64,000 bases of DNA from Prevotella sp. Lineage in GTDB: Bacteria > Bacteroidota > Bacteroidia > Bacteroidales > Bacteroidaceae. The notes beneath the pieces were generated by a model. The model searched no databases, was not told the origin of the DNA, and saw only the letters and a program-made list of their open reading frames with translations. Shown here piece after piece: positions 9,307 to 61,202 of this stretch. Within the stretch, counting starts at the first letter, position 1; each line of letters opens with the position of its first letter. The position numbers were made by a program, and so were the translations under genes. Location: positions 19,242 to 83,241 of the forward strand of contig JAFRPY010000113.1 of NCBI GenBank assembly GCA_017428925.1, written 5' to 3'.

Positions 9307-11769
9307 TTATTTTGAAATAATCTTTTTTCCTTTCGTAATATAGATTCTGCCGGCCTGCGGGGTGTTCACCTTGTTGCCCAACAGGTCGTAGACAGCCGAT
9401 GGGTCAATCTTCGATGATGACTGCTCAATGGTCTGGATGCCGGAAGCATCGCCGATGATGGGTTCAATGGTCAATGCGCTCGATGTCATCTGAAGTGTCA
9501 GTTCGCTGCCTTCCACCTCTTCGTTCTTTCCGCCGGTGAGTTTCCAGCCAGTTACTACTTTTCCTTCAGGAGCCGTACCCGTGATGGTGAGCTCGCGGTT
9601 GGGGAAGAACTTGCCGTCGAACGTGTTCTTCGTCAGTTTGATATCGTTCATGGTGATGTCGACATCCTGCTTGGTCTTGTTAATGGTCAGGGCGACAGGT
9701 GTGCCCAGGCTCCATTGCTGGCCAATGTATTTGTAGAAGTAGTCCGTACGGGGATCGTATTTTGTGGTAGTACCACCGCCGCCCCAAGGCCAGCCGCCCC
9801 AACCTTGCTCTTCATATCCTGCCATCCATTTCTTGGCATTTTCGAACTTGTTGTTGATGTCACTGCGGTTATCACCCCATGGGTTGTATTTGTCGCGGTG
9901 GGCCACAAACTCCTCGATGGCTTCTGCCTTGATGGCATCAATCACTTCGCCCGTTCCCTCGGCGTTCATGAAGTCGCCCATGTAAACGCAGCACTTGTCG
10001 ATGAACATCTTCAGGATATCCTCATCTTCCAGCATGTTTTTAATCAGGCGCGTCGCCGGTTCGGTGAAGGCCCAGTTGTCGCCACCATGGTTGTTGGGGT
10101 TGTAGAGCAGATCGATGGTGTTGTAGTCCGGCTTTCTGCCATAGAGTCCGAGTCCGAAGTCGGTATCCTTAAGGATGAAACGCCATCTCTTGGGCAGGCC
10201 TGAATCTGTGTCGTCGTCGTTGGGACGCCAGAACACGATGTTGTTGCCAGGGAAGTCGATGTTGCCGTAGAAGAGGTTCAGGATCATCACGTTCAGGTAT
10301 TCGCTGACATCCATCCATTGCTCGTATTCAGCCAAGGTGTGTCCCTTCTCGCTGTAGAAAGCCTTGAAAGCCTCATAGTTGTCGGCAGTACCTTCTTTCA
10401 ACTCTTCGATGAACTGATCTACGTTATCCACTTTTTCATGGCCAATCTCAACCATGTCGATATCCTCCAGTCCGCCGTAGTTGCTGTAGATATTGTCTTC
10501 GTTGGAACGTTCGCGAATGTTCAGCATACCCATATACTCACCGTTAATATAGAGCACAGCCGTATGGCCGGCCTGCCAGTCAAGATCCACGTTCGGTCCC
10601 ATCGTGCGCTGAATGATAAGATCGCGGAAATACAGGTCGCCGAAGTCGTTACCGCCGTCGCGCAGCGAGAACGACTTGAACTCCGTGACACCCGGCTTCT
10701 GGTCGGGGAAGAACTCATACGAGTAACGCTTGTGGTCGGGATCGAAACGCTTGTTGGCATAGAATACCATCGACTTCAGCGCATTCGAACGCGACTGTCC
10801 GCCCTGGATGCGGGTTTCACCTAACTGGTTGAAAACACTCTCCGTACCTGCGGCGGTGAACATCTCGATGTTGACGGGGCGGCGCCAGTCATGTGTCTTC
10901 TTGTCTTCCTTACTGTTGTTATTCGCAAAAAGTCCAAGTTCCTTGCTGTTCAGATACCTGTCGTCGGTCTGGACCGAGAAGATGGGAACCGTCACGGCCC
11001 TTGGGTGGAAGATATACGACTGGGCGGTGCTGACGGGCGAGAGCCAGCCGTCGCAGAACAGTTTGGCCCGAATCACCGTGGTGCTCTCCATGAAGATGGC
11101 CTTGCTGAAAATCTCGCTCGATGCCGTAGGCTCTGAACCGTCGGTGGTGTAGCGAATCACCGTACCCTCAGGGGAATTTTCGGGCAGCGAGATGTACAGC
11201 CTGATTCTCTTGCTGTTCTCATATACCTGCCCAGGTAAATTGAATACGGGAGCACCCAAGATGTGTTTCGCATCGCAAATCTCGCCCGTATTGGCCTTGC
11301 CAGGTGTCGGTGTGAGCTGATAGCCCCACTCGTCGGCACCGTCGGTCTTACGGCCGTATGCAACGTCGGGAGCCGGCATCTTGGCCATAGTTTCCAGTTT
11401 GTCGACGACTTCGCCACCCTTGAAGAGATAGAGATTGCCGTCCTTGCCCGATTCCAGGCGGAAACTGGTGTGAAGACCGTTCTCCTCCTTGTCGCAATAG
11501 ATCACGACATAGCCACCGGCAGGTATCGACTGGTCGGGCAGTTGCCAGGCCTTCTTTTCCTTGTTCTTGTTACTGATCTTGTAGTCAGCCAGGTTGATGG
11601 CTGCATCAGTCGGGTTATACAATTCCACCCACGAATCGGGAAACTCATTCAAGTCATCCATTATGCATTCCACATTCGACTGCATCAACTCGTTAATCAC
11701 TAACTGGGCATGGCCGGGTACGGCCATGCCTAACAATACTACTGCAAGTACATTCTTTAAAAAACTCAT
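9307..11769 (-). CDS. CotH-kinase family secreted protein with lamin-tail domain (copy B)
   Basis: 820 residues, with the same architecture as copy A: signal peptide ending VPGHA, lamin-tail domain, chitobiase/FN3-like domain, CotH kinase region with [13 protein letters not shown], and a C-terminal tail with AVYDLLGNKV and RIYITKGKKII. It differs by a loop near residues 445-470 (a helical EIGHEKVDNVDQFIEEL insert) and by a Trp/Gly-rich stretch near 660-680 (EEQGWGGWPWGGGG). The two copies share blocks such as the whole [18 protein letters not shown] region. It is the first gene of a probable CotH-B / CotH-A / deoD transcript. No clear -33/-7 pair is visible in the 69 bases between it and the gene upstream. 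Confidence 0.88.
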   Translation of the reverse strand: MSFLKNVLAVVLLGMAVPGHAQLVINELMQSNVECIMDDLNEFPDSWVELYNPTDAAINLADYKISNKNKEKKAWQLPDQSIPAGGYVVIYCDKEENGLHTSFRLESGKDGNLYLFKGGEVVDKLETMAKMPAPDVAYGRKTDGADEWGYQLTPTPGKANTGEICDAKHILGAPVFNLPGQVYENSKRIRLYISLPENSPEGTVIRYTTDGSEPTASSEIFSKAIFMESTTVIRAKLFCDGWLSPVSTAQSYIFHPRAVTVPIFSVQTDDRYLNSKELGLFANNNSKEDKKTHDWRRPVNIEMFTAAGTESVFNQLGETRIQGGQSRSNALKSMVFYANKRFDPDHKRYSYEFFPDQKPGVTEFKSFSLRDGGNDFGDLYFRDLIIQRTMGPNVDLDWQAGHTAVLYINGEYMGMLNIRERSNEDNIYSNYGGLEDIDMVEIGHEKVDNVDQFIEELKEGTADNYEAFKAFYSEKGHTLAEYEQWMDVSEYLNVMILNLFYGNIDFPGNNIVFWRPNDDDTDSGLPKRWRFILKDTDFGLGLYGRKPDYNTIDLLYNPNNHGGDNWAFTEPATRLIKNMLEDEDILKMFIDKCCVYMGDFMNAEGTGEVIDAIKAEAIEEFVAHRDKYNPWGDNRSDINNKFENAKKWMAGYEEQGWGGWPWGGGGTTTKYDPRTDYFYKYIGQQWSLGTPVALTINKTKQDVDITMNDIKLTKNTFDGKFFPNRELTITGTAPEGKVVTGWKLTGGKNEEVEGSELTLQMTSSALTIEPIIGDASGIQTIEQSSSKIDPSAVYDLLGNKVNTPQAGRIYITKGKKIISK

Positions 11770-11838
11770 CTTTTTCCTTAATTATTATTCTATCCTTAAT
11801 TTGGTCAGTCTATGAAGACGATTCATCGTTTCTGCTGA

Positions 11839-13422
11839 TTATTTTCCTTTCGTCAAATTACCCAAAATGTCGCGGGTGAGTTCCTTGGTGATCGAGCGGG
11901 TGGCTGCCGACGTGGCGTTCTTCACCACACGGCCGGTGGCCGAGGTCGACGATTTGGTCTTCTTGCCCGTCACCTTGTTCGAAACCCATGTGCCCAGTAT
12001 GGTGGCCAGCGTTCCGGTGATGGCCGTCATAATGGCCTTCGATACCTTCGAGAACATGCCGGGTTTCTCCTTCTTGCCTTTCTCAGCCTTCTCGGCTTCG
12101 GCAGCGGCTTTCTCGGCCTCGGCCTTCTGCAGTGCCTGCTCATTCTCTTTTTGAAGAATCTCGTAGGCACTTTCGCGGTCTACCATCGTGTCGTATTTGC
12201 CATAGATGCGGCTCTGCTTGATGATGTCAAGACGCTGCCCCTCGGTCACGGCACCTATCTGCGACAGTGGGAACAGGATTTTTGCGCGCTCCACAATCGA
12301 GGGCGCACCCTTCTCGTCGAGGAAACTCACCAGTGCCTCGCCGGTCTCAAGGTTCATGATAGCCTCGTCGGTCTTGAATTCGGGATTGGCGCGGAATGTG
12401 TCGGCGGCGGTCTTCACGGCCTTCTGGTCTTTCGGTGTGTAGGCGCGCAGGGCGTGCTGCACACGGTTGCCCAATTGTCCGAGGATGTTCTCGGGAATGT
12501 CCGTTGGACTCTGTGTGATGAAATAGATGCCCACACCTTTCGAGCGGATCAGACGAATCACTTGCTCAATTTTGTCGAGCAGGGCCTTGCTGGTGCCTTC
12601 GAAAAGCATGTGGGCCTCGTCGAAGAAGAATACCAGTTTGGGCAGCGGCAGGTCGCCAACCTCGGGCAATGTGGAATAGAGCTCTGACAGCAGCCACAGC
12701 AGGAAAGTGGAGTAGAGCTTCGGCTGCATCATCAGTTTGTCGGCAGCCAGCACGTTCATGATGCCCTTTCCGCCTTCGGTCTGCATCAGGTCGTAGATGT
12801 CGAATGCAGGCTCGCCGAAGAACTGGTTCGCGCCCTGGGCTTCCAGTTGCAGCAGGGCACGCTGGATGGCACCCACCGATGCAGCCGAAATGTTGCCGTA
12901 TTGGGTGGTGTAGTCCTTCGCATTTTTCGAGACATAGTCGAGCATCGACCGCAAATCCTTCAGGTCAAGTATGAGCAGACCGCGCTCGTCGGCAATGCGG
13001 AAAACAATGTTCAGCACGCCGTCTTGCGTCTCGTTGAGTTGCAGCAGGCGTGAGAGCAGCTGCGGGCCCATCTGGCTCACGGTGGCGCGCATGGGGTGAC
13101 CTTGCTCACCGTAAACGTCGAAAAACCTGACGGGGCACGATTGGAATTCGGGGTTTTCGATACCAAATTCGGGCAGTCGTTTCTCGATGAAACCGCTCAT
13201 TTTGCCCACTTGTGAGATGCCCGAGAGGTCACCCTTCATGTCGGCCATGAAGCAGGGTACGCCTACCTGACAAAAGGATTCGGCAATCACTTGCAGGGTT
13301 ACGGTCTTACCCGTTCCGGTGGCACCGGCAATGAGTCCGTGGCGATTGGCCATCTTTCCGTTGATACTCAGCGCACCGTTGGCGCAATGGGCGATATAGA
13401 GCCCGCGTTCTTTGTCGTACAT
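11839..13422 (-). CDS. HerA-like ATPase (DUF853 family)
   Basis: 527 residues. Walker A GATGTGKT (33-40) and Walker [13 protein letters not shown] (about 263-274) mark a FtsK/HerA-class ATPase of the DUF853 (YjgR-like) type. Other family landmarks are [27 protein letters not shown] and [26 protein letters not shown] (sensor/arginine-finger region). The last about 90 residues form an Ala/Glu/Lys-rich helix ([13 protein letters not shown]) followed by a basic, Thr/Ser-rich tail. HerA pumps DNA with NurA in archaea, but no nuclease partner lies next to it here, so its role is unknown. It has its own promoter. Confidence 0.88.
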
Positions 13423-13465: not shown

Positions 13466-13497
13466 CAAAGATAGGAAAAAAAAGGCATTAATCCAAA
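13466..13497 (-). promoter_or_regulatory. Promoter of HerA-like gene
   Basis: On the minus strand TTTG (13494-13497) and TATCTTTG (13466-13473) are separated by 20 bases, a full consensus match. Confidence 0.8.
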
Positions 13498-43664: not shown

Positions 43665-45374
43665 TTATTTGATGATAACCTTGCGGCCATTCTTAATGTA
43701 GATGCCCTTGGTAGGTGTCGTGGTACGGCGTCCGTCAATAGTATAGTAATATGGAGAAACTCCTGTGTGGGACAGGGCGCCAATGGCATGTATGCCTGAT
43801 GTCGCATTGGCTAACATCACCTTGTTCATGCGTATTCCGTGACCATGCATGACGATGCCTTTCTGGGCAAGGATGTTGTAGACAGCCTCTTCGAAGGTAA
43901 TGGTTGAGGTACAGTTTTCGCCGTTGCCTACACCGTGGACATCGCTGGGAACATATTCCTTGGTGAATTTTGCTCCGTTGATGATGAATGACGGGTTGGT
44001 GCTCCAGTCCCCGTAGAAAAATTGAATTATATTATAGTCTGTATAGTCAAGGGTGTATTGCAATATCAGCCTTACGTCCTTACCCATTGCCTCAAACTCT
44101 GTGTTAGGAATGTTGAGTTGAAAGCCGTTGCCCCAGTCCATCATAGCGTCGCCTTCCCAAATCACCGTTCCTCCGGTTGTGTCATCTCCGCCTGTGTCCT
44201 GTGGTCCGCTGTACTCAACACCGGCACCCTCGCAAATTCCTTTCAGGGCATAAGTGTTTCCGACGGATATACCAGAAGTGGAACGTTTGAAGATACCGAA
44301 TTTCTCCGTGCCATTGCCGAAAGCATTGTTGTCCCAAGCAAAGGCTGCATAGCCGTATTTACGGGCTTCACTGACCATAGTCTTGTAGTAGTACTGCAGA
44401 TTTTCCATCTGAGTTTGCTTGTCGTCGTTTTTATAGTGACAGGTGGCACCATATTCGCCCAAGACAACGCCCAGCCCTTTTTTCCACCAATCATAGAAAA
44501 TGCGCAGAAAATAGCTTGACAATGTCGACTCATCGCTCGTAGGAACGCTCTTTCCCATGTCCTTGTACTTCTTCCCCCAGTAGTAATAGGTGGCACCGCC
44601 GGCATATTCGTACGGGTCGTAGCAGTGGAACTCCACGCTCATGCGGCCCTCTACCACGTCGGTGGGCACAGTAAAGCCGTCGAGACCGTAGTTTCCATTG
44701 CAGGCATACGTCTGTACCACAAGGTGACGGTAGTAGTTCTTGCCGCCGGTAGCACGCACAGCATCCACAAACGCCTGGTTATAGCTGTTCTGAACGGCCT
44801 GCCATTCGGCTTCGGGCTTGCCCCAGTTCTCCTCCCCGTTTACAAGGGCTATTGTCTCGTTGGTTCCGGCAAAGGCCAGACGCTGGTCGTAATCGCGGAA
44901 AAAGGTGGCAATGCACTTCCAAAGTGCTTTCAGCTTCCTGTTGTTTTCTGCCTTTTTGGAATTGAAGGGATTGCGGTCGAGCCATGCCTCGTGGTGTACG
45001 TTGATGATGACGTACATGTCTTCTGTCAGACACCAGTCGACAATCTCCTTGACGCGGTTGAGCCATGTATCCTTCACCACCATGTTCGTCTCATCAGAGA
45101 GCTGTTCGGTCCATCTGACAGGTATTCGAATGGCATTGAAGCCTTGTGCCTTTACATACTTGATCATGTCCTGGGTAGTTTTTGGGTTGCCCCATCCTGT
45201 CTCTCCGCCGCTGCTCTCCAGCGAGTTGCCGAGGTTCCAGCCCATCTTCACATTCTTGTCCCATTCCTGTGCGCTCAAGGTCATACCTGTTTCGTCGGGA
45301 GCCACAGCGGTTGTTATTGCATGGGTAGCAAGTACAAACAATAGGGCACATGCTGTTGTCAGTAGTTTTTTCAT
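43665..45374 (-). CDS. Secreted GH5 family endoglucanase-like glycoside hydrolase
   Basis: 569 residues, signal peptide ending ATHA. The GH5 domain (about 30-380) shows MGWNLGNSLE (46-53), GFNAIRIPVRW, VIINVHHEAWLD, FAGTNETI with the acid/base Glu173, VEFHCYDPY (His250) and GVVLGEYGA with the nucleophile Glu307. The WNLGNSLE/WGNP opening fits the GH5_4/GH5_2 endo-beta-glucanases; cellulose, xyloglucan or mixed-linkage glucan are candidate substrates. After a Gly/Thr linker comes a beta domain (about 400-520), then the sorting-like tail (YTIDGRRTT... KGIYIKNGRKVIIK). It stands alone behind its own promoter, without SusC/SusD neighbours. Confidence 0.92.
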   Translation of the reverse strand: MKKLLTTACALLFVLATHAITTAVAPDETGMTLSAQEWDKNVKMGWNLGNSLESSGGETGWGNPKTTQDMIKYVKAQGFNAIRIPVRWTEQLSDETNMVVKDTWLNRVKEIVDWCLTEDMYVIINVHHEAWLDRNPFNSKKAENNRKLKALWKCIATFFRDYDQRLAFAGTNETIALVNGEENWGKPEAEWQAVQNSYNQAFVDAVRATGGKNYYRHLVVQTYACNGNYGLDGFTVPTDVVEGRMSVEFHCYDPYEYAGGATYYYWGKKYKDMGKSVPTSDESTLSSYFLRIFYDWWKKGLGVVLGEYGATCHYKNDDKQTQMENLQYYYKTMVSEARKYGYAAFAWDNNAFGNGTEKFGIFKRSTSGISVGNTYALKGICEGAGVEYSGPQDTGGDDTTGGTVIWEGDAMMDWGNGFQLNIPNTEFEAMGKDVRLILQYTLDYTDYNIIQFFYGDWSTNPSFIINGAKFTKEYVPSDVHGVGNGENCTSTITFEEAVYNILAQKGIVMHGHGIRMNKVMLANATSGIHAIGALSHTGVSPYYYTIDGRRTTTPTKGIYIKNGRKVIIK

Positions 45375-45514: not shown

Positions 45515-45931
45515 ATGAAACACTTCAGACTGTTATTGATGGCTGTAGCCCTCTTCACCTGCACTACCTGCGTAAACGCCCAAAGCCTGCGCGATAAGAG
45601 CGGCAACAGCATCGGAAAGATTGAAAGCGACGGCACCGTGCGCAACAAGAGCGGAAACCGCGTAGGTCAAATAACCAGCAGTGGAGATATCCGCAACTCA
45701 AGCGGGAATACCATTGGGAAAATCGACAACAACGGCACTGTGCGCGACAAGAGCGGAAACAGCATCGGCAAAATTGAGAGCGATGGAACCGTGCACGACA
45801 AGAGCGGAAACCGAATGGGTAAGGTGGAAAGCGACGGCACAATCCGTAATGCCAGCGGCAACACCATCGGCAAGGCTCAAGGCGTAGACCGCCGATGTGC
45901 CGGCGCTTATTTCTTCTTTAATTACCCATGA
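45515..45931 (+). CDS. Secreted 17-residue-repeat protein ('5-fold beta-flower'-like)
   Basis: 138 residues. A signal peptide (ending TCVNA) is followed by about six units of 17 residues: RDKSGNSIGKIESDGTV and variants (SGN-hydrophobic-G-hydrophobic-x-x-x-G-x-hydrophobic-R), then GAYFFFNYP. Each unit would give two short beta strands, and the C-terminal aromatic stretch would close the fold. Bacteroidetes proteins with this pattern are, as I recall, named 5-fold beta-flower proteins, with no known function. Its stop codon overlaps the prmC start (ATGA), so prmC translation depends on this gene. Confidence 0.8.
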   Translation: MKHFRLLLMAVALFTCTTCVNAQSLRDKSGNSIGKIESDGTVRNKSGNRVGQITSSGDIRNSSGNTIGKIDNNGTVRDKSGNSIGKIESDGTVHDKSGNRMGKVESDGTIRNASGNTIGKAQGVDRRCAGAYFFFNYP

Positions 45932-46769: not shown

Positions 46770-47558
46770 TCAGACTTTTTCGCTTAGACGGTCACAATAC
46801 TGGTACACGATGGCCAGCATGTCGTCGGGCAGATAGCTCAGTGCCTTTTGGATAAGTTCCATCGGGGTTTCATAGAAAGCTTCGGCCAGCGTGCCCGTGA
46901 TGGCGGCCTTTGTGTCGGTATCGCCGTCGGCCATCACGGCATAGCGTATGGCGTCTTCGAAATTCTGGCTTTCCAGAAAACAGCGTATCGCCATGGGGAC
47001 AGTTTCCATGCATGTTCCGTCGAAATGATTCTCCGATCCTATCTTGTTGATTTCTCTTATGGTCGGGATTTCGTAGCCCCACATCTTCCACACCTTGTTT
47101 TCCACGTCGTCTTTTGTGATGCGACAAGTGCGAAGCCAGTAGGTAAGCGTGGCGATGCAGTCGGCCCCCTTCAGTCCCTCAGGATGGTTGTGTGTGGGCT
47201 TTGCCGTCAGTTTGGCCTGCTCCCTTACTTGATTGTAGTCACTAATCAGCCATGCCACGGGACTCACACGCATGGCAGCACCGTTGCCGAACGAACCGTA
47301 TGGCTTCGGATTGTCGGATTCTACCCATTGCCCGAACCTTCCTCCATAGCCACCCATCGGGTTAGGGTAGCGGCGGCACCAGTCGTGCAACGACTCACCG
47401 TAGTCGCGCCCGTTCATAATGGCATCGGCGATGGCGATGGTGCAGATGGTGTCATCGGTATAGTTACACTCTTCGGTGAAAAGCTTGAACCCCTTCTGGG
47501 GAGCAGGTCCGAATTCGAAACGACTGCCTACGATGTCTCCAATGATAGCTCCGAGCAT
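46770..47558 (-). CDS. ADP-ribosylglycohydrolase family protein
   Basis: 262 residues. Metal-binding motifs are YTDDTIC near residue 33 (first Thr-Asp-Asp) and DGDTDTKAA near residue 211 (the Asp-x-Asp-Thr pair). GAIIGDIVGSRFE at the N-terminus and GNGAAMRVSPVAWL complete the DraG/ARH fold. The family removes ADP-ribose from proteins or nucleic acids; the target is unknown. It is convergent with prmC, 8 bases away. A TATATTTG -7 box lies on the minus strand at 47605-47612. Confidence 0.92.
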   Translation of the reverse strand: MLGAIIGDIVGSRFEFGPAPQKGFKLFTEECNYTDDTICTIAIADAIMNGRDYGESLHDWCRRYPNPMGGYGGRFGQWVESDNPKPYGSFGNGAAMRVSPVAWLISDYNQVREQAKLTAKPTHNHPEGLKGADCIATLTYWLRTCRITKDDVENKVWKMWGYEIPTIREINKIGSENHFDGTCMETVPMAIRCFLESQNFEDAIRYAVMADGDTDTKAAITGTLAEAFYETPMELIQKALSYLPDDMLAIVYQYCDRLSEKV

Positions 47559-49131: not shown

Positions 49132-49163
49132 GTTGTTTCTCTATAAATTAATATGTAATTTTG
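49132..49163 (+). promoter_or_regulatory. Promoter of O-acylation cassette
   Basis: GTTG (49132-49135), 20 bases, TAATTTTG (49156-49163). The ATG at 49172 is 8 bases after the -7 box, so the leader is very short. Confidence 0.65.
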
Positions 49164-49171
49164 CAGCACTT

Positions 49172-50401
49172 ATGCGCTTGAAAATCTGTGACTACCACCG
49201 TTTCATACATTCCTTACCGCTCAAATTAGGACTGTTGGCCGTCTGTTGTCTGTTGGCAACGGATGTCGCTTTTGCGCAAGAAAAAGGCAAGGCCTCTTAC
49301 TATTCCCGCCGTTCTACGGGAGCTTACACGAGCAGTGGCCGGCGTTTCCACAGCGACAGTTTGTTCTGTGCCCATCGCAAATATCTCTTCGGCACTTTGC
49401 TCAAGGTGACCAACATTTCAAACGGCAAGGAGGTTGTGGTGAAAGTGGTCGACCGCGGACCTTTCATCAAGGGTCGTATCATCGACCTTTCATACGCGGC
49501 AGCCAGCAAACTGGGAATGATTTCTCAAGGCGTGGGCTCGGTTGTGGTGACTCCCTACAAGCCCAACAAGGGCGTGCCCTACAAGTTCGATTCTGCCGAA
49601 GAGATGCCCGAGTTTGATTTCGAGACCACCGATGACGACGGCACCACTCCTGCCTGGATAAACAAGGGCCATCCCTCCATGAATGTTGTCCTTCTGGGCG
49701 ATTCCAACACCTTCCTTGGTGGTGAAGACTGCACCAATCCCCGTGGATGGAACAAGTGGTTTAATGACATCTTCAAGCCTGCCAGCTGCCGCAGCTATGC
49801 CCGCAGCGGTGCCACCTGGACCAATACGCCAAAGACGCGCCGAAACGTTCAGGAGAACATTCAGACGCTGGGTGACGACAATGTCATCTACAACCAGGTG
49901 GTCCGTCTCGACGATGCCGTTGGCCGTGGTCGCCAGCCGTCGCCTCAGCTCATCATCATCATGGCAGGCACCAACGACGCGTGGTTCCTCGACAAGCGTC
50001 CCCATGCCCTCGAGAAGACGGCACGACAGGTTTTTGCCGAAACCGGGTCGTTCAGCACCAAACTGCCCTCTGCCATGCTGACGCTGGCCGAAAGCATTCG
50101 CTACAATTGCGAGTTGCTGCACCGTTGTTTCCCGCAGTCGCAAATCATCCTGGTAGCCCCCTTGCAGTCGGTTCAGGCCGCCCGCCATCTCGATGCTGTC
50201 AACCAGCTCATCGAAGACTGTGGCCGCGAGATGAACATCGGCGTGATACGTCTCGACCGTGAGTCGGGCATCCGCAGCATTTCCGAGAATCAGAAAAAAC
50301 GATATACCACCGATGGCACCCACACCAGCGTCGAGGGTGCCAAGCGCTGTGGCCGTTGCATCGCCTCTGGCGTCGAACAACTCATAAAGGATAAAAAATA
50401 G
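49172..50401 (+). CDS. RlpA-like domain fused to SGNH hydrolase
   Basis: 409 residues from the ATG at 49172; upstream in-frame ATG 49133 precedes the -7 box and is rejected. Signal peptide ends DVAFAQ. Residues about 36-130 are an RlpA double-psi barrel: GKASYYSRRSTGAYTSSGRR, CAHRKYLFGTLLKVTN, VKVVDRGPF (catalytic-type Asp) and AASKLGMI. After a short linker comes an SGNH/GDSL domain: VVLLGDSNTF (block I Ser), SGATW (block II), MAGTNDAWF (block III Asn), DGTHTS (block V Asp/His). RlpA cleaves stem-less peptidoglycan in the septum, whereas SGNH enzymes move or remove O-acyl groups. Followed 2 bases later by an MBOAT gene. Confidence 0.88.
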   Translation: MRLKICDYHRFIHSLPLKLGLLAVCCLLATDVAFAQEKGKASYYSRRSTGAYTSSGRRFHSDSLFCAHRKYLFGTLLKVTNISNGKEVVVKVVDRGPFIKGRIIDLSYAAASKLGMISQGVGSVVVTPYKPNKGVPYKFDSAEEMPEFDFETTDDDGTTPAWINKGHPSMNVVLLGDSNTFLGGEDCTNPRGWNKWFNDIFKPASCRSYARSGATWTNTPKTRRNVQENIQTLGDDNVIYNQVVRLDDAVGRGRQPSPQLIIIMAGTNDAWFLDKRPHALEKTARQVFAETGSFSTKLPSAMLTLAESIRYNCELLHRCFPQSQIILVAPLQSVQAARHLDAVNQLIEDCGREMNIGVIRLDRESGIRSISENQKKRYTTDGTHTSVEGAKRCGRCIASGVEQLIKDKK

Positions 50402-50403
50402 GG

Positions 50404-51849
50404 ATGGTTTTTTCAGATTTGTTTTTTATCTTTGTCTTTCTGCCGGTCTTTCTGCTCTGTTATCTTTCGGCGTGGCTGGTCGACAAGAAATGGCAGGGCT
50501 CCCCTGAGCGTCCTTCCACGGCCGTGCGCAATGCCGTGCTCGTCGTCTTTTCCCTGATTTTCTATGCCTGGGGCGAACCCGTCTATGTGTTCCTCATGCT
50601 GGGCAGCGTCGTGGTCAACTATCTGGCCGGTCGCATCATCGACAATCAGGAGAATCATCGCCGGGCGGCCCTCGTCATGGGCATCACGCTGAACCTGCTC
50701 ATCCTCGGCACATTCAAGTATGCCGGCTTTTTCGCGCAGACGCTTTGCGATGCCGGCCTCGCGGTGCCCGTTCCCCAGATATCGCTGCCCATCGGCATCA
50801 GTTTCTACACATTCCAGTCCATTTCCTATCTCGTCGACGTCTATCGCCGCGAAGCCCCCGTACAGCGCCGCTTCGTCAACCTTTTGCTTTACATCTCCAT
50901 GTTCCCGCAGCTCATCGCCGGACCTATCGTGCGCTACGAAATAGTTGCCCTCGAGATTAACAACCGCCGTGTGACGCCCTACGACTTTGTTGAGGGATCC
51001 TATCGCTTCCTCATCGGACTGGGTAAGAAGGTGATTCTGGCCAATCAGCTGTCTGAAATCTCCGACCAGTTCCTGGCCAACAACCTCGACGGTCTTTCCA
51101 CCACAGGTGCATGGGTGGGCATAGCCGCCTTCACGTTGCAGATTTTCTTCGATTTCTCCGGCTACAGCGACATGGCCATCGGTCTTGGTCGCTGCATGGG
51201 CTTCCATTTTGCCGAGAACTTCACCCATCCCTATTGCTGTCGCACCATCACCGAGTTCTGGCGCCGCTGGCACATCTCGCTGGGCAGTTTCTTCCGCGAC
51301 TATGTTTACATCCCCATGGGCGGCAACCGTCGCCACCAGGCCCTGAATATCTTTGTCGTGTGGTTCCTTACCGGTATGTGGCACGGGGCCAGCTGGAACT
51401 TCATCATCTGGGGCGTCTATTTCGGTGTCATCGTGACGCTCGAGAAATATACCCTGCTTCGTGTCAAACGCTACATCCCGTCACTGCTGCTCCATGTCTA
51501 CAGCATGCTGCTCGTCATCATCGGATGGGGCATTTTCTATTTCGACGATTTCGGCAAAATGACGCGCTTTTTCCAGATCGGATTCGGTCAGACCGCCATT
51601 TTCCACGATTTCACCGTAGAGAGCGCACTGACCGACAATTTCTGGCTTTGGGTGGTGGCCATACTTTTCTGCCTGCCCGTCTACGATGCTGTGTCGCGGC
51701 TCTACCACCGCCTGTTCCGCCGCAACACCGCCCTGAAGAAAAACGTTGCCCTCCTCACGCGCCTCTCCGTCTCCGTCGTCCTGCTGCTGCTCAGTGTCGC
51801 CCTGCTGGTAGGTGCCACCAATAATGCGTTTATATATACAAGATTCTAA
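50404..51849 (+). CDS. MBOAT O-acyltransferase (AlgI/PatA-like)
   Basis: 481 residues with about ten membrane segments. The MBOAT core is clear: SYLVDVYRREAPVQRRFVNL, TEFWRRWHISLGSFFRDYVY, IPMGGNRRH and FLTGMWHGASWNFIIWG, with the catalytic His in MWHGAS. Such proteins carry acyl groups across the membrane to a periplasmic acceptor enzyme. It is translationally close to the RlpA-SGNH gene (2 bases) and precedes two DHHW genes, the AlgI-AlgJ/AlgX arrangement of alginate acetylation. Whether the target is peptidoglycan or another envelope glycan cannot be read from the sequence. Confidence 0.93.
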   Translation: MVFSDLFFIFVFLPVFLLCYLSAWLVDKKWQGSPERPSTAVRNAVLVVFSLIFYAWGEPVYVFLMLGSVVVNYLAGRIIDNQENHRRAALVMGITLNLLILGTFKYAGFFAQTLCDAGLAVPVPQISLPIGISFYTFQSISYLVDVYRREAPVQRRFVNLLLYISMFPQLIAGPIVRYEIVALEINNRRVTPYDFVEGSYRFLIGLGKKVILANQLSEISDQFLANNLDGLSTTGAWVGIAAFTLQIFFDFSGYSDMAIGLGRCMGFHFAENFTHPYCCRTITEFWRRWHISLGSFFRDYVYIPMGGNRRHQALNIFVVWFLTGMWHGASWNFIIWGVYFGVIVTLEKYTLLRVKRYIPSLLLHVYSMLLVIIGWGIFYFDDFGKMTRFFQIGFGQTAIFHDFTVESALTDNFWLWVVAILFCLPVYDAVSRLYHRLFRRNTALKKNVALLTRLSVSVVLLLLSVALLVGATNNAFIYTRF

Positions 51850-51899
51850 GGCCCACCCCCTGGGAAATTGAGCAATTAAGAAAATGAGAAAATGAGAAA

Positions 51900-52955
51900 A
51901 TGAAAAATAAGATAATGCAACAACCCTTAATAACGTCAGGTGTTCTGCGGTCGCACCGCAGAAAAACCACCATCCTTATCGCCGCCCTCCTGTGCCTGTT
52001 CCCTTTCGAGACAACGGCCCAGATTGCCCGTCAGGCCAAGAACGGCATCATCATCACCCGCCGCGGCGGCCACATTCGCGCCATGGAACCCTTCCGCGGA
52101 GTCGTCACCGGTGGTGGCGACTATGCCGGTGCACTGAACCGTTACCACGAAGCCCTCGGCCCCGATGTGCGCGTCTATAGCATGCTCATCCCCACCGCCG
52201 TAGAGTTCTACTGTCCCCCCGAGTGCGCCTCATGGAGCAACCGCGAGAAACCCGTCATCGAGAACATCAACAGCCGTTTCAGTCCCGAGATCACCGTCGT
52301 CGATGCTTACAGCGTGCTCAGCGCCCATCAGGGCGAGCAAATCTACGCCCGCACCGATCACCACTGGCTCCCCCTCGGTGCCTACTATTGTGCCGAGGCT
52401 TTTGCACAGGCTGCCGATGTGCCCTTCCTTGACCTCAGCCACTACGAACCGCGCACCGTCCATCAGTTCGTGGGCACCATGGCCAAGTTCTCAGGCGACG
52501 CTTCGGTCAGGCAAGACCCCGAGGAGTTCGTCTACCACGTTCCCCTCGATTCCAACTACGTCACCACCTACGTGGGCCACACCCTCGGCAAGAACCGCGC
52601 CGTCACCGGACTTACCGACCCCTTCGAGGGGCCGTTTTTCCTGAGCTACAAGGACGGCAGCTCGCAGGCCTACTGCACCTTCATGGGCGGCGACACCCGC
52701 ACCACCCATGTGCATACCACCACCGACAACGGTCGCCGGCTTCTCGTCATCAAGGACAGCTATGGAAACGCCGTTCCCGGCTACCTGTTCCATTCCTTCG
52801 AAGACATCTACGTGGTCGACTTCCGCTATTTCCAGAAGAACATCATCGCCTACGCCCGCGAGAAAGGCATCACCGACCTGCTGTTCGTCAACAATATGCA
52901 GCACGCCTACGCCCCTTCTACCACCCGCTATTTCATCAGCATGCTCAACAAATAA
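51900..52955 (+). CDS. DHHW family protein 1 (AlgJ/AlgX-like)
   Basis: 351 residues with a late hydrophobic segment (about 23-40, ending FETTAQ) after a basic N-terminus, acting as signal or anchor. RTDHHWLPLGAYYCAEAF (DHHW motif, catalytic Asp/His) and VIKDSYGNAVPGYL (the Ser of AlgX-type SGNH enzymes) are both intact. Compared with its neighbour it lacks the first about 130 residues of the family (EKRDLARFPEF...PFRD region). It is preceded by an AAAATGAGAAAATGA repeat, 50 bases after the MBOAT gene. It probably transfers acyl groups from the MBOAT protein to a glycan. Confidence 0.87.
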   Translation: MKNKIMQQPLITSGVLRSHRRKTTILIAALLCLFPFETTAQIARQAKNGIIITRRGGHIRAMEPFRGVVTGGGDYAGALNRYHEALGPDVRVYSMLIPTAVEFYCPPECASWSNREKPVIENINSRFSPEITVVDAYSVLSAHQGEQIYARTDHHWLPLGAYYCAEAFAQAADVPFLDLSHYEPRTVHQFVGTMAKFSGDASVRQDPEEFVYHVPLDSNYVTTYVGHTLGKNRAVTGLTDPFEGPFFLSYKDGSSQAYCTFMGGDTRTTHVHTTTDNGRRLLVIKDSYGNAVPGYLFHSFEDIYVVDFRYFQKNIIAYAREKGITDLLFVNNMQHAYAPSTTRYFISMLNK

Positions 52956-52982
52956 CACCTGCGAAAATCCGCTCTGTCCCCG

Positions 52983-54476
52983 ATGCTCCAGAACAAGATA
53001 TACATCGCCCTCGTATCGCTGCTGTTCATCACCTTTGCCGTGGTGCTCAACTTTTTCCCGCGCAGTGCCTGGTCAGCCCTCGAGAAGCGCGACCTTGCCC
53101 GCTTCCCCGAGTTCTCGCTCGACAGCCTCTTCAGCGGGACTTTCACCACGAGCGTCAATTCGTGGTATAGCGACAGCGAGCCCTTTCGCGACCGTTTCAT
53201 GGCCCTCAGCATGAAGCAGAAAGACCTGCTGCGCATCGTTATGGGCGACGACAACGTCACCTTCCATGCCGCCGCCGGACCTGTTGAGGAAGGCGAGGAT
53301 GAAGCCGACACCCAGGAGATGGACGAGCGCGACGTGGGTGAGTATCATAACAAACTGACGGCCGACGAGAACGCAAAAATTGCGCACAATGGCATCATCA
53401 TCGTCGGCAGCGGTTCCAATGTCAGGGCCCTCATGGCATTTGGCGGCAGTTCCCGTGGCGGTGTACAGTATGCCGAGGCTGCCAATGCCTACAAGCGCGC
53501 ATTTGGTTCCGCCGTCAACGTCTACTGCATGGTCATTCCCACCGCTGCAGATTTCTACTGTCCCGAAAAAGCCCGCCGGCGCTCTAATCCCCAGCAACCC
53601 ACCATCCGCAACATCTACAGCCATCTCGACCCCGATGTGCGTGCCGTAGATGCCTACACCGCCTTGGGCAACCATGCTGCTGAAGACATCTACCTGCGAA
53701 CCGACCACCACTGGGCCCCTCTCGGAGCCTTCTATGCTGCCGAGCAGTTCGCCCGCGTTGCCGGAGTACCATTCCGGCCCCTCACCTCCTACGAGCGCAA
53801 GGTCGTCCACCGCTTTGTGGGAAGCATGTATGGTTATTCGCAGGACATTGCCATCAAAAATGCTCCCGAGGACTTCGTCTACTACGTCCCCATGGGCATC
53901 GACTATACCACCACCTACACCGACTACACCATCAATGCCGACTACCAGATTACCGGCGAGCGGAAACCCTACAAAGGCATCTTTTTCTACAAATATAAGG
54001 ACGGCAGTGGCGGTGCCTACTGCACATTCATGGGCGGCGACACCCGCATCACCTGCGTGCGCACACCCACAGGAAATGGCCGCCGCGTGCTCATCCTGAA
54101 AGACAGTTTCGGCAACGCCCTCCCCGGCTACCTGTTCTATTCGTTCGAGGAGGTCCATGTCGTCGATTTCCGCTATTTCGCCAAGAACATGCGGGAGTAC
54201 GTCCGTCAGAACCATATCACCGACATCCTCTTTGCCAACAACATTTTCAACGCCTATTCCAGCAAGATATGCACCAAGTACGTCAAGTACCTCGACCAGC
54301 CCAATGGCGTCTATGCCCGTCCAACCGCCACAAAGAAAAAGACTGCGCCAGTCTCGAATCCTTCGCCGCAGCCTTCACAAACCACATCATCACCCGTCAC
54401 TCAGCAACCAGCCCCTGAACCCCCAACACCGGCACCCACGCCTCAGGAAACACCCGAGCCCGACGCAGGAGAATAA
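52983..54476 (+). CDS. DHHW family protein 2 (AlgJ/AlgX-like)
   Basis: 497 residues with an N-terminal membrane anchor (about 5-25), then the full family N-terminus: LEKRDLARFPEFSLDSLFSG and SWYSDSEPFRDRFM. An acidic insert follows (EEGEDEADTQEMDERD, about 101-116). The catalytic motifs are RTDHHWAPLGAFYAAEQF and ILKDSFGNALPGYL. The last about 55 residues form a Pro/Thr/Gln-rich tail (PAPEPPTPAPTPQETPEP). It is homologous to DHHW protein 1 across about 330 residues. It is the last gene of the cassette, with its terminator at 54551-54590. Confidence 0.88.
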   Translation: MLQNKIYIALVSLLFITFAVVLNFFPRSAWSALEKRDLARFPEFSLDSLFSGTFTTSVNSWYSDSEPFRDRFMALSMKQKDLLRIVMGDDNVTFHAAAGPVEEGEDEADTQEMDERDVGEYHNKLTADENAKIAHNGIIIVGSGSNVRALMAFGGSSRGGVQYAEAANAYKRAFGSAVNVYCMVIPTAADFYCPEKARRRSNPQQPTIRNIYSHLDPDVRAVDAYTALGNHAAEDIYLRTDHHWAPLGAFYAAEQFARVAGVPFRPLTSYERKVVHRFVGSMYGYSQDIAIKNAPEDFVYYVPMGIDYTTTYTDYTINADYQITGERKPYKGIFFYKYKDGSGGAYCTFMGGDTRITCVRTPTGNGRRVLILKDSFGNALPGYLFYSFEEVHVVDFRYFAKNMREYVRQNHITDILFANNIFNAYSSKICTKYVKYLDQPNGVYARPTATKKKTAPVSNPSPQPSQTTSSPVTQQPAPEPPTPAPTPQETPEPDAGE

Positions 54477-54550: not shown

Positions 54551-54590
54551 AAAACGGGCGTTCGGAATTGAAATTTTCCGCGCCCGTTTT
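54551..54590 (+). terminator. Terminator of O-acylation cassette
   Basis: AAAACGGGCG (54551-54560) pairs with CGCCCGTTTT (54581-54590); the inner CGGAA/TTCCG extends the stem. Followed by A-rich sequence. Confidence 0.8.
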
Positions 54591-55137: not shown

Positions 55138-55434
55138 ATGAGCACCCAAGCAATGCAAAAGACCATCGCCGAATACTTCAAGACGCAGCCCGTGCTGAAG
55201 GCATGGCTCTTCGGCTCTTATTCGCGAGGCGAACAGCGGCCGTGGAGCGATGTTGACATACTCGTGCAGTACGACCGAAGCCGACCCATTGGTCTGATGA
55301 AAATAGCCGGAATGAAAGTGGATCTTGAGGATTTGCTTCACTGTGAGGTTGATCTTGTGGAAGACGGTACCCTGCGCCCGTGGGCCGTAGAAAGTGTAAA
55401 TAAAGACAGAAGGTTGATTTATGAGAGAGCATAG
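55138..55434 (+). CDS. MntA-type nucleotidyltransferase antitoxin
   Basis: 98 residues: a minimal nucleotidyltransferase with GSYSRGEQRPWSDVDILVQYD, the G-S-x(2)-R-G and D-x-D catalytic motifs. In characterised MntA/HepT pairs the antitoxin adds AMP to a Tyr of the toxin. Its end overlaps the HepT start by 14 bases. Confidence 0.92.
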   Translation: MSTQAMQKTIAEYFKTQPVLKAWLFGSYSRGEQRPWSDVDILVQYDRSRPIGLMKIAGMKVDLEDLLHCEVDLVEDGTLRPWAVESVNKDRRLIYERA

Positions 55435-55927
55435 CAGAGACCGTGGACGGCTGGAGGACATCCTGAAATACGCCCAGAACGTAGAGAAGATAATAGACGG
55501 TATCTCCTACGAAGTTTTCACCAAGGATATCCGTATCTATTATTCCGTCATGAAGAATGTTGAGGTCATCGGTGAGGCTGCCAACATGCTTACGCGCCAT
55601 TTCCGCGAGACGCATACAGAACTACCTTGGAGGCTGATTGTCAGTATGCGCAACGTGTTGGTTCACGGCTATGCCCAAGTCTCCGATATTGACCTGTGGC
55701 AGACGGCGACAAACGACATCCATCCGTTGTGCGAACAAGTGAAGCACTATCTCAAGGAAATCGACTGGGAAGACTGGCAGCAAGGTGAAGACCCCTATAC
55801 CGAAATTGACAATGCCGCTTACAAGCAAGCCGTAGAATCAGCCCATCGCATGAAAGTCAAGGGCTACGCCGTTGAGGATATTGCAGAGATTACGGGCCTG
55901 ACGACAGAGGAAATTGAGGGGCTGTAA
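55421..55927 (+). CDS. HepT-like RNase toxin with extra C-terminal tail
   Basis: 168 residues. The HepT core (about 8-110) carries RNVLVHGY, the R-x4-H-x-Y motif with the RNase Arg/His and the AMPylated Tyr. The usual length is about 110-120; here about 50 residues follow: PYTEIDNAAYKQAVESAHRM then VKGYAVEDIAEITGLTTEEI. That tail resembles the 'G-(S/A)VEDIAEITGL--EEI' helix-turn-helix-like ends of Bacteroidetes Rpn/PD-DExK transposase-type proteins. It could bind DNA for autoregulation. It overlaps the antitoxin by 14 bases. Confidence 0.85.
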   Translation: MREHSRDRGRLEDILKYAQNVEKIIDGISYEVFTKDIRIYYSVMKNVEVIGEAANMLTRHFRETHTELPWRLIVSMRNVLVHGYAQVSDIDLWQTATNDIHPLCEQVKHYLKEIDWEDWQQGEDPYTEIDNAAYKQAVESAHRMKVKGYAVEDIAEITGLTTEEIEGL

Positions 55928-58024: not shown

Positions 58025-58056
58025 CTTGCAAATATCAATTATTCTTTTTATCTTTG
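58025..58056 (+). promoter_or_regulatory. Promoter of Zeta-like kinase gene
   Basis: CTTG (58025-58028), 20 bases, TATCTTTG (58049-58056). It fixes the start at 58066. Confidence 0.6.
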
Positions 58057-58065
58057 CCTGCAAGA

Positions 58066-58641
58066 ATGAGTAAGAATCTTTATATCATCAGTGGTTGTAA
58101 TGGTGCTGGCAAGACAACAGCATCATACACGGTGCTTCCCGAAATCCTTGATTGCAGGGAGTTTGTGAATGCTGACGAGATTGCCCGTGGACTTTCCCCG
58201 TTCAATCCGGAAGGTATGGCAATTGAAGCGGGGCGACTGATGATCAGACGCATCGAAGAGTTGCTCAGTCGGGATGAGACGTTTTCTATAGAGACTACAC
58301 TCGCTACAAAGTCGTACTTGAATCTTGTTCGCCGTGCTCAGGCAAAGGGGTATCGCGTAAACATAGTTTTCTTCTGGCTGAGAACTCCAGAACTTGCAAT
58401 TCAACGCGTTGCAGAGAGAGTCCAGCATGGTGGGCATAACATACCTGAAGATATTATTAGACGTAGATACGAAGCAGGCATCAAGAACCTGTTCCGTCTG
58501 TTTATACCAGAGGTGGATTACTGGGGCATATACGATAACTCTGAGCAGCCACGCATAAAGATTGCAAGTGGTAGTAAAATGAAAGGTGTTGATGTTTTCA
58601 ATGAAGAACTATATAAATCAATTAAAGAATATGTCAGATAA
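58066..58641 (+). CDS. Zeta toxin-like kinase
   Basis: 191 residues from the ATG at 58066. P-loop SGCNGAGKTT (about 9-18), then FVNADEIARGLSPFNPEGMA with the catalytic-type Asp, FSIETTLATKSYL and VFFWLRTPELAIQRVAERV. These are the Zeta toxin fold landmarks. Zeta toxins phosphorylate UDP-N-acetylglucosamine or related sugars; chromosomal Bacteroidetes homologues are uncharacterised. Its end overlaps a small gene by 11 bases, so the order is toxin first. Confidence 0.85.
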   Translation: MSKNLYIISGCNGAGKTTASYTVLPEILDCREFVNADEIARGLSPFNPEGMAIEAGRLMIRRIEELLSRDETFSIETTLATKSYLNLVRRAQAKGYRVNIVFFWLRTPELAIQRVAERVQHGGHNIPEDIIRRRYEAGIKNLFRLFIPEVDYWGIYDNSEQPRIKIASGSKMKGVDVFNEELYKSIKEYVR

Positions 58642-59117: not shown

Positions 59118-61202
59118 ATGAGACAAAGACTACTTACCCTTTTGCTCCTCGGGGTACTTGCAGTCCTGAACATTCGGGCTGCAGAGGTTTACACCCACTT
59201 CGACCCTGAAACGGGCGTGCTGATGTACTACTACGACGACCTGCGGACGTCGCGCGGCGGTACGAACGAGCTTTATAACCCGAATTCATATCGCTTCGGG
59301 ACTTACTACCAAGATGTAAAGAAGGCCGTCATTCACTCTTCGATGAAGAACGCTCCCTTGACTTCGACGCGGTACATGTTCAATGGTAGCACCAACGGTG
59401 GCAAAGGAAGAGCCTTGGTTAACATGAGAAGCATAGAAGGCTTGGAGAACTTGAACACAACTAACGTGACGGATATGTACGGTATGTTCTACTACTGCGC
59501 GGCACTAGAGACTCTTGACCTGAGTTCGTTCAACATCTCTAAGGTGACGGATATGAGACTGATGTTTGCGTATTGTTTTAATTTAGAGACTATCTACTGC
59601 AACACCGACTGGAGCACCAGCAGTGTGTTGACACAGTCAACTTGGATGTTCAGAGACTGCAATGAACTGGTGGGTGGCAAAGGCACGACATATTACTATT
59701 TGAAAGATGAGAGCAATTCGGCAGACAAAACTTATGCCCGTCTGGACGGTGGAACATCTAAGCCGGGTTACTTCACGCAACCTATTGATAAGTCGAAGGA
59801 GGTCTATACCCACTTCAACTCCAGCACGGGTGTGCTGACGTACTATTATGATAACAAGCGGGCTTCGCGCAGTGGTATAACGGAGGATTATGCTCCAGAA
59901 CTTGGAAGTGCGTTAGTTCATTTCCAGTCCTACTATAATCAAATCACCAAGGCCGTCGTTGACCCGTCGATGAAAGATGCCCCTTTGACTTCGACGCGCT
60001 ATATGTTTAATGACGGCAACGGTAAACTTCTGGGTCATTTGACGGCCATTGAAGGATTGGAGAACCTCAATACTGCCATCGTAAGGGATATGGATAGGAT
60101 GTTCTCTGGCTGCTATGCACTTACCTCGCTTGACTTGAGTTCGTTCAACACCTCCAACGTGACGTATATGAGAAATATGTTCTATCAATGCACTTCGCTG
60201 GTGTCGTTGGACGTTAGTATGTTCAAGATTGAAAGAGTTCGGTATATGACTGGAATGTTCAGTTTGTGTAAGGGACTGAAGGCCATCTATTGCGACGACG
60301 ATTGGAGTGCAAGCACCAAGCTGCTGAATGCGGCAGGCATGTTCTCTGGCTGTACGGCACTGGTGGGCGGCAAGGGAACGAAATACGACAGTTCGGTGGC
60401 AGATGAGACCTACGCCCGTCTCGACGGCGGCACGTCGAGCCCGGGCTACTTCACGTCGTCGAGCGACAAGCCGGAAGTCTATACCCACTTTGAGCCCGAA
60501 ACGGGCGTGCTGATGTACTACTACGACAACCTGCGGACGAAGCGCGGCGGTACGAACGAGCTGTACGCCCCCGATGCCAATCGTTTCAAGGCCTGCTATA
60601 ATCTGGTCACCAAGGCCGTCGTTCACTCGTCGATGAAGCAGGCACCGCTGACCTCTACGGCGGGCATGTTCTGGGGCGGCACCGATCAGGAACTGATAAA
60701 CCTGACGAGCATCGAAGGGCTGGAGAACCTGAACATGTCGAACGTGACCAATATGAACTCGATGTTCAACCGATGCGCGCGGCTGGAGACGCTCGACCTC
60801 TCGACGTTCGACGTCAGCAAGGTGGAGTATGCAAGCTACATGTTCCGTGGCTGCGAGTCGCTGACGACCATCTACTGCGACAACGACTGGAGTACGAGCA
60901 CGGTGATGACGCAGTCGTACGGCATGTTCCAGGACTGCACGTCGCTGGTTGGCGGCAAGGGTACGGCGTTCGACAGCTCGGTACATTATTCGCTGCAGGA
61001 CAAGCGCTACGCCCGTCCTGACGGCGGTACCTCGAAGCCCGGCTACTTCACCTCGACGACTTCGAGCGGCATCCTGCCTGCCGTAAACGATAACCTTAAC
61101 GTTAACGATAGCTACTACACGCTTGACGGCCGGAAGCTGCAGGGCAAGCCGACACAGAAGGGTGTGTATATCCAGAATGGCCGTAAGGTCGTGATTAAGT
61201 AA
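59118..61202 (+). CDS. BspA-like surface protein with three DUF285-type repeats
   Basis: 694 residues, signal peptide ending LNIRAAE. Three tandem modules of about 215 residues begin at about 17, 229 and 453, each with YTHF-(P/S)-TGVL-YYYD, KAV-(H/D)-SMK-APLTST, IEGLENLN, MF--C--LE-LDLSSF, then TIYC--DWS and GGKGT...YARLDGGTS-PGYF. The MF--C---LDLS pattern is the BspA-type leucine-rich surface repeat (DUF285). The tail YTLDGRKLQ...KGVYIQNGRKVVIK is a sorting-like end. An adhesin role is likely. A Rho-independent terminator follows. Confidence 0.9.
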   Translation: MRQRLLTLLLLGVLAVLNIRAAEVYTHFDPETGVLMYYYDDLRTSRGGTNELYNPNSYRFGTYYQDVKKAVIHSSMKNAPLTSTRYMFNGSTNGGKGRALVNMRSIEGLENLNTTNVTDMYGMFYYCAALETLDLSSFNISKVTDMRLMFAYCFNLETIYCNTDWSTSSVLTQSTWMFRDCNELVGGKGTTYYYLKDESNSADKTYARLDGGTSKPGYFTQPIDKSKEVYTHFNSSTGVLTYYYDNKRASRSGITEDYAPELGSALVHFQSYYNQITKAVVDPSMKDAPLTSTRYMFNDGNGKLLGHLTAIEGLENLNTAIVRDMDRMFSGCYALTSLDLSSFNTSNVTYMRNMFYQCTSLVSLDVSMFKIERVRYMTGMFSLCKGLKAIYCDDDWSASTKLLNAAGMFSGCTALVGGKGTKYDSSVADETYARLDGGTSSPGYFTSSSDKPEVYTHFEPETGVLMYYYDNLRTKRGGTNELYAPDANRFKACYNLVTKAVVHSSMKQAPLTSTAGMFWGGTDQELINLTSIEGLENLNMSNVTNMNSMFNRCARLETLDLSTFDVSKVEYASYMFRGCESLTTIYCDNDWSTSTVMTQSYGMFQDCTSLVGGKGTAFDSSVHYSLQDKRYARPDGGTSKPGYFTSTTSSGILPAVNDNLNVNDSYYTLDGRKLQGKPTQKGVYIQNGRKVVIK

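Follow-up and report, generated by a model that had tools for sequence, protein, structure and literature searches.

Four consecutive genes in a 64,000-nucleotide stretch of Prevotella sp. DNA (contig JAFRPY010000113.1; the whole stretch is called the window below) encode an RlpA domain fused to an SGNH domain (gene 1), an MBOAT acyltransferase (gene 2) and two DHHW proteins (genes 3 and 4). Their core, SGNH-MBOAT-DHHW(-DHHW), is conserved across Bacteroidales as a genuine cassette and is, judged by the sequences of its proteins, a PatA/PatB1-like O-acylation module. The link of RlpA to this cassette is lineage-specific and outside the core, yet it is repeated. Our tentative interpretation, which we hold at just under an even chance, is that of a self-contained module that O-acylates a glycan of the envelope (most likely peptidoglycan), with RlpA-coupled de-O-acetylation. 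PMC numbers in the text refer to excerpts of the papers concerned.

A contig search matched 200 stretches and gave 164 relatives, the best 80 of which were kept as named Bacteroidales loci. Among these best 80, an SGNH gene is followed by an MBOAT gene in 77, then by at least one DHHW gene in 72 and by two in 59. The MBOAT is missing at L164, L184 and L195, and it is present without DHHW at L136, L139, L156, L165 and L193, with the contig ending inside or just past the MBOAT gene in L136, L139 and L193. When 22 regions were fetched around SGNH matches, the MBOAT came after SGNH in all 22 and DHHW came next in 21, the remaining region being cut by a contig end. Because the same gene order is seen again in relatives, the arrangement is not one of chance. 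DHHW proteins are scarce otherwise (within the order, 17 of 295 genomes gave a match, which passed the cut-off in 13, the source genome included), and none beyond genes 3 and 4 was found in the source genome, an assembly of 3.56 Mb in 122 contigs that is 85.05% complete. Non-core neighbor clusters each occur in at most 9 of 81 loci. Gene 1 was matched somewhere at E ≤ 1e-5 in 168 of 301 genomes drawn from the family; among the matches listed, only that of the source genome itself spans both halves fully. The cassette relatives are mostly Prevotella-type assemblies, many titled as rumen and gut samples; they include the cultured species Xylanibacter rodentium (L181) and Prevotella pectinovora (L171).

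The enzymes of the core retain the residues that an acyl relay would use. Gene 2 scores 78.9 bits against PF03062 (cut-off 27) and has the conserved histidine in MWHGASWNF, and an FxYxxF motif, comprising residues used by PatA (PMC12148441), stands at the extreme C terminus in 74 of 74 complete MBOATs of cassette relatives. Genes 3 and 4 reach 110 and 168.7 bits against PF14286 (cut-off 25), and all 129 complete DHHW proteins of the relatives have TDHHW, KDS and DxRY, the residues used by PatB1 (PMC9487903). The two proteins are 51% identical over 314 residues; the beginning of the DHHW profile is missing from gene 3, and gene 4, as read by eye, starts with a hydrophobic stretch and ends in a Pro-rich tail. 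The PatB1 structure was matched by DHHW sequence at 2.6e-11, and on sequence the pair is nearer PatB1 than AlgJ, which replaces the likeness to AlgI/AlgJ drawn in an earlier, sequence-only reading of the window. That reading had also proposed an envelope glycan O-acylation module of the MBOAT/SGNH type, and the conserved order and intact relay motifs bear it out. By analogy with PatA/PatB and PatB1, the MBOAT would load a cytoplasmic acyl (probably acetyl) group onto Tyr478 in the FIYTRF tail at its C terminus, and the two PatB1-like DHHW enzymes would accept it from that tail on the KDS serine and transfer it to the glycan.

The position of RlpA was followed in a survey of 398 genomes of the genus, 327 of which matched gene 1 and at least 49 of which have the SGNH half and are here called cassette genomes. 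Among the matches listed there are two fusions, that of the source genome and that of genome G652, the latter 51% identical to gene 1 over residues 31–409. In 8 further genomes (loci L099–L106) a separate RlpA lies in the cassette operon, in the order alpha/beta-hydrolase, RlpA, propeller-type lipoprotein, alpha/beta-hydrolase, SGNH, MBOAT, DHHW, DHHW. Both alpha/beta-hydrolases exceed Pfam cut-offs. For the L101 propeller, the matches to PQQ_2 and Beta-prop_ACSF4 stay below cut-off, while its homologue at L117 passes PQQ_2; the labels lipoprotein and secreted for proteins of this extended operon are our reading of their N-termini. A divergent AsmA-like gene stands beside the operon in 7 of the 8. 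At L117 (7147–8733) and L161, a propeller lipoprotein and a hydrolase-type match follow the DHHW genes with no RlpA nearby, and a query with the L101 protein found no propeller lipoprotein in the source genome (85% complete).

RlpA is fused or in the operon in 10 of the at least 49 cassette genomes listed, and it lies upstream of the cassette in 3 of the best 80 loci. RlpA as an invariant cassette member was rejected, as most relatives seen keep it elsewhere; the expectation that all four genes would be conserved together thus holds for SGNH-MBOAT-DHHW and fails, in most relatives, for RlpA. The linkage nevertheless recurs and is better than a one-off. In a tree of 46 RlpA domains that of gene 1 clusters with four unlinked RlpAs (97/92), the G652 fusion with those of the operons (99/88), and a single origin of both fusions was rejected (p-AU 0.0077; cost 24.65 log-likelihood units). 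A functional bond between RlpA and the cassette is suggested by the two separate fusions and the one lineage of operons, although the G652 fusion has no adjacent MBOAT and no DHHW was detected in that genome (81% complete). The rarity of fusions, two among the matches listed for the 398 genomes, and the fragmented source assembly might raise the suspicion of an assembly or frame artefact; we consider this very improbable, as the open reading frame runs unbroken within an 83-kb contig and a second assembly has its own fusion, to an RlpA of another lineage. A gene that we read as glutamate dehydrogenase gdhA stands beside RlpA at 10 of 11 RlpA loci examined and in 24 of 35 unlinked tree rows, and the gdhA-like loci of all 10 RlpA-linked genomes have no RlpA within 1.5 kb. 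The source genome has such a gdhA-like locus (L225, contig C36) with no adjoining RlpA, unlike those 10 of 11, and no second RlpA besides gene 1 was found in this 85.05%-complete assembly.

Gene 1 opens with a hydrophobic segment that we read as a signal peptide. Its RlpA domain scores 96.3 bits against TIGR00413 (cut-off 82.15) and keeps His68 (CAH), Asp94 (DRGPF) and Asp105 (IIDLS); the catalytic Asp of Pseudomonas aeruginosa RlpA (D168), placed only by domain-start offset from PMC9712689, would fall on Asp105 or one residue away. At position 57, after T(A/S)SG, 30 of 46 aligned rows have Glu, with Arg in gene 1 and Val in the G652 fusion. It is possible, if doubtful, that the fused domain has lost lytic transglycosylase activity and serves for binding only, as the replaced Glu and the known inactivity of the Escherichia coli homologue (PMC9712689) would suggest; the His and both Asp are, however, conserved in 46 of 46 rows, and Glu is also missing in 14 of 44 unfused ones. 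Convergent inactivation of the fusions, read from the lost Glu, was rejected because of those 14 rows. The sequence-only reading had further held that the RlpA domain steers the pathway to the septum. In FtsN and DamX mutants septal localization is driven by SPOR domains, and RlpA attaches to denuded septal glycan through its own SPOR domain (PMC6895207). Searches at E ≤ 1 detected no such domain in gene 1, the G652 fusion or two separately encoded RlpA relatives, and septal steering is therefore unsupported.

The SGNH half of gene 1 carries its motifs from residues 176 (GDSNT), 212 (SGATW), 266 (GTND) and 381 (DGTH), with Ser178 as the SGNH serine. In a sequence search of the PDB with gene 1, all strong matches were DPBB chains. 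The best fold matches of the SGNH domain are GDSL-type esterases or lipases, a fold that does not show reaction direction, and it is equally near PatB and Ape1. That equal nearness, together with the place of the SGNH gene at the head of the cassette and the presence in the extended operon of alpha/beta-hydrolases that could fill the esterase role, would fit an SGNH protein acting as a third transferase in the relay, with RlpA as a glycan-binding arm presenting the acceptor. We think this rather unlikely, since the transferase motifs are already complete in both DHHW proteins and the closest folds, silent as they are on direction, are those of GDSL-type esterases or lipases. We infer instead that the SGNH enzyme, like an Ape esterase, would remove the modification, and that its fusion to RlpA in the source genome would place de-acetylation and glycan cutting or binding together.

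Two genomes, G206 and G542, carry an Ape1b-like gene and then a classical Pat immediately downstream of the cassette and on its strand, with 40% and 38% identity to Bacteroides-type Ape1b and 60% and 62% to reference Pat, respectively; the references were taken from loci L241 and L242, identified by ape1b-ape1c-pat order and SGNH/MBOAT content rather than by accession. At L037 this pair of genes directly after the cassette spans 9912–12795. Cassette MBOATs of relatives are 39–44% identical to classical Pat over 315–355 residues. The ape1b-ape1c-pat cluster of Bacteroides was described in 2005, with 69.4% peptidoglycan O-acetylation measured for B. fragilis and 27.0% for B. thetaiotaomicron (PMC1199599, Table 1); a review gives 56–66% for three Bacteroides species (PMC11382707). 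Lytic transglycosylases are reported to be blocked by O-acetylation, and the lytic transglycosylase LtgA of Neisseria meningitidis binds and stimulates the esterase Ape1 (PMC7083599); by analogy, the RlpA-SGNH fusion would embody the same logic in one chain. The cassette, the recurring RlpA linkage and the adjoining Ape1b-like and Pat genes together favor peptidoglycan O-acetylation.

Several observations weigh against this assignment. The SGNH profile missed the Ape1b- and Ape1c-type proteins of L241 and L242 at E ≤ 10. PatB1 itself made no O-acetyl-peptidoglycan and is selective for the secondary wall polysaccharide (PMC9487903), and a clostridial MBOAT/DHHW pair sits in a cellulose locus together with a GH5 enzyme (PMC7710045); the present cassette has a GH5 gene 3.8 kb upstream, on the opposite strand. 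Classical Pat, called at E ≤ 1e-140 or, for G540, from two fragments at 71% and 63% identity, is also held by 13 of the at least 49 cassette genomes listed. The PatB1, clostridial, GH5 and Pat observations, and the unlinked state of RlpA in most cassette genomes, would suit the same MBOAT-DHHW relay with another envelope or surface glycan as acceptor, as for PatB1, AlgJ/AlgX and the proposed clostridial CcsH/CcsI, the RlpA linkages then being neutral relocations. We give this alternative a real but lesser probability. No glycosyltransferase or polysaccharide-synthase family is among the 30 commonest neighbor clusters of the 81 loci, judged by eye; in two genomes ape-pat genes come straight after the cassette, and the RlpA fusions arose twice independently. 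Mutual exclusion of the cassette and the classical OAP Pat was considered and is not supported, as 13 genomes hold both; the two occur together in none of the 10 RlpA-linked genomes, though most of those are inter-related. The other MBOAT of the source genome (contig C30) adjoins a protein with a GSSH motif, as read by eye, and the arrangement is not ape-pat.

In its most specific form, our preferred reading of a peptidoglycan module would be an undescribed O-acetylation cycle in Prevotella and relatives, with DHHW transferases and an SGNH esterase gating the lytic transglycosylase RlpA, gate and cutter having merged independently in two species into an "unlock-and-cut" enzyme. We put this forward as a speculative, and on present evidence unlikely, proposal. 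Resistance to lysozyme and cell-wall self-cleavage are regarded as being under the control of O-acetylation (PMC1199599). If the proposal is true, the licensing of lytic transglycosylases by O-acetyl state becomes directly testable via one fused protein, and the reach of the DHHW family extends from Gram-positive polymers to Gram-negative walls. In the literature searched (titles and abstract openings, with few subscription papers covered) we found neither RlpA joined to an SGNH enzyme nor a DHHW cassette in Bacteroidales; the excerpt of PMC12632261 has nothing on Bacteroidota O-acetylation, and those of PMC12419801 and PMC5697884 describe no such cassette in Bacteroidota.

The features of the locus are collected in Table 1. 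The four genes and their intergenic gaps (2, 50 and 27 bases, all genes on the + strand) are as the sequence-only reading had them, and a promoter-like site and a perfect-arm hairpin are found where it had placed promoter and terminator. The TTG-N20-TAnnTTTG pattern, a Bacteroidetes promoter form, occurs at 7 sites in the window against 0.40 expected, starting at 13466, 15284, 35219, 45406, 49133, 58026 and 61344. Only 8 bases separate the promoter-like site from the ATG of gene 1, so that the transcript would be nearly leaderless. The hairpin is absent from the output of a generic terminator scan limited to loops of 3–8.

Table 1. Coordinates of the cassette and its signals in the window
Feature	Position	Strand	Basis
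Promoter-like TTG-N20-TAnnTTTG	49133..49163	+	Pattern scan of window
Gene 1, RlpA(DPBB)-SGNH fusion, 409 aa from ATG	49172..50401	+	Pfam, TIGR00413
RlpA/DPBB domain, aa 37-125	49280..49546	+	DPBB_1 1e-18; PDB 4avr 1.8e-21
SGNH/GDSL domain, aa 172-396	49685..50359	+	Lipase_GDSL 9.2e-11
Gene 2, MBOAT acyltransferase, 481 aa	50404..51849	+	MBOAT 5.6e-22
C-terminal acyl-shuttle hexapeptide FIYTRF of gene 2 (FxYxxF; Tyr478), putative	51829..51846	+	Motif definition, PMC12148441 (excerpt)
Gene 3, DHHW protein, 351 aa; TDHHW 152, KDSY 285, DFRY 307	51900..52955	+	DHHW 2.1e-31
Gene 4, DHHW protein, 497 aa; TDHHW 240, KDSF 373, DFRY 395	52983..54476	+	DHHW 3.2e-49
Terminator-like hairpin, perfect 10-nt arms 54551-54560 / 54581-54590, 20 nt between	54551..54590	+	

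Upstream of the cassette lie a GH5 cellulase gene (43665–45374, minus strand), a beta-flower protein (45515–45931) and an ADP-ribosylglycohydrolase gene (46770–47558, minus strand). Just downstream, at 55138–55927, is a nucleotidyltransferase and HepT-like pair, by its two domains a toxin-antitoxin system of the MNT-HepT type, followed by a Zeta-toxin-like kinase (58066–58641) with a promoter-like site at 58026–58056 and by a DUF285/leucine-rich repeat protein (59118–61202).

The nearest characterized kin of the cassette are PatA1/PatB1 and the OAP clusters rather than AlgI/AlgJ. The ape1b-ape1c-pat clusters of Bacteroides (PMC1199599) likewise join MBOAT and SGNH genes in Bacteroidales, SGNH before MBOAT, whereas the cassette SGNH is not recognizable by sequence as Ape1b or Ape1c and the cassette adds DHHW proteins and, in some species, RlpA. 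The clostridial cellulose locus (PMC7710045) also has an MBOAT gene adjoining a DHHW gene, CcsH/CcsI, but this pair accompanies a cellulose synthase, and no synthase was seen by eye to recur around the 81 cassette loci. PatA1/PatB1 of Bacillus cereus, which O-acetylate the secondary wall polysaccharide, share the MBOAT and a DHHW protein with KDS, DxRY and TDHHW; the cassette differs in its Gram-negative hosts, usually two DHHW genes and an extra canonical SGNH, and no S-layer genes were recognized by eye. In common with the RlpA of P. aeruginosa and E. coli, gene 1 has a DPBB domain, which scores above the NCBIfam rlpA cut-off; it differs from these in having an SGNH domain instead of a SPOR domain, none being found. 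LtgA and RlpA belong to different transglycosylase families. Neisseria PatA/PatB/Ape1 and LtgA offer a parallel, in that enzymes adding and removing acetyl groups occur together with a lytic transglycosylase that binds the esterase (PMC7083599), and the FxYxxF relay is shared with the cassette MBOAT (PMC12148441); LtgA and Ape1 are separate proteins, whereas RlpA and SGNH form one chain in gene 1.
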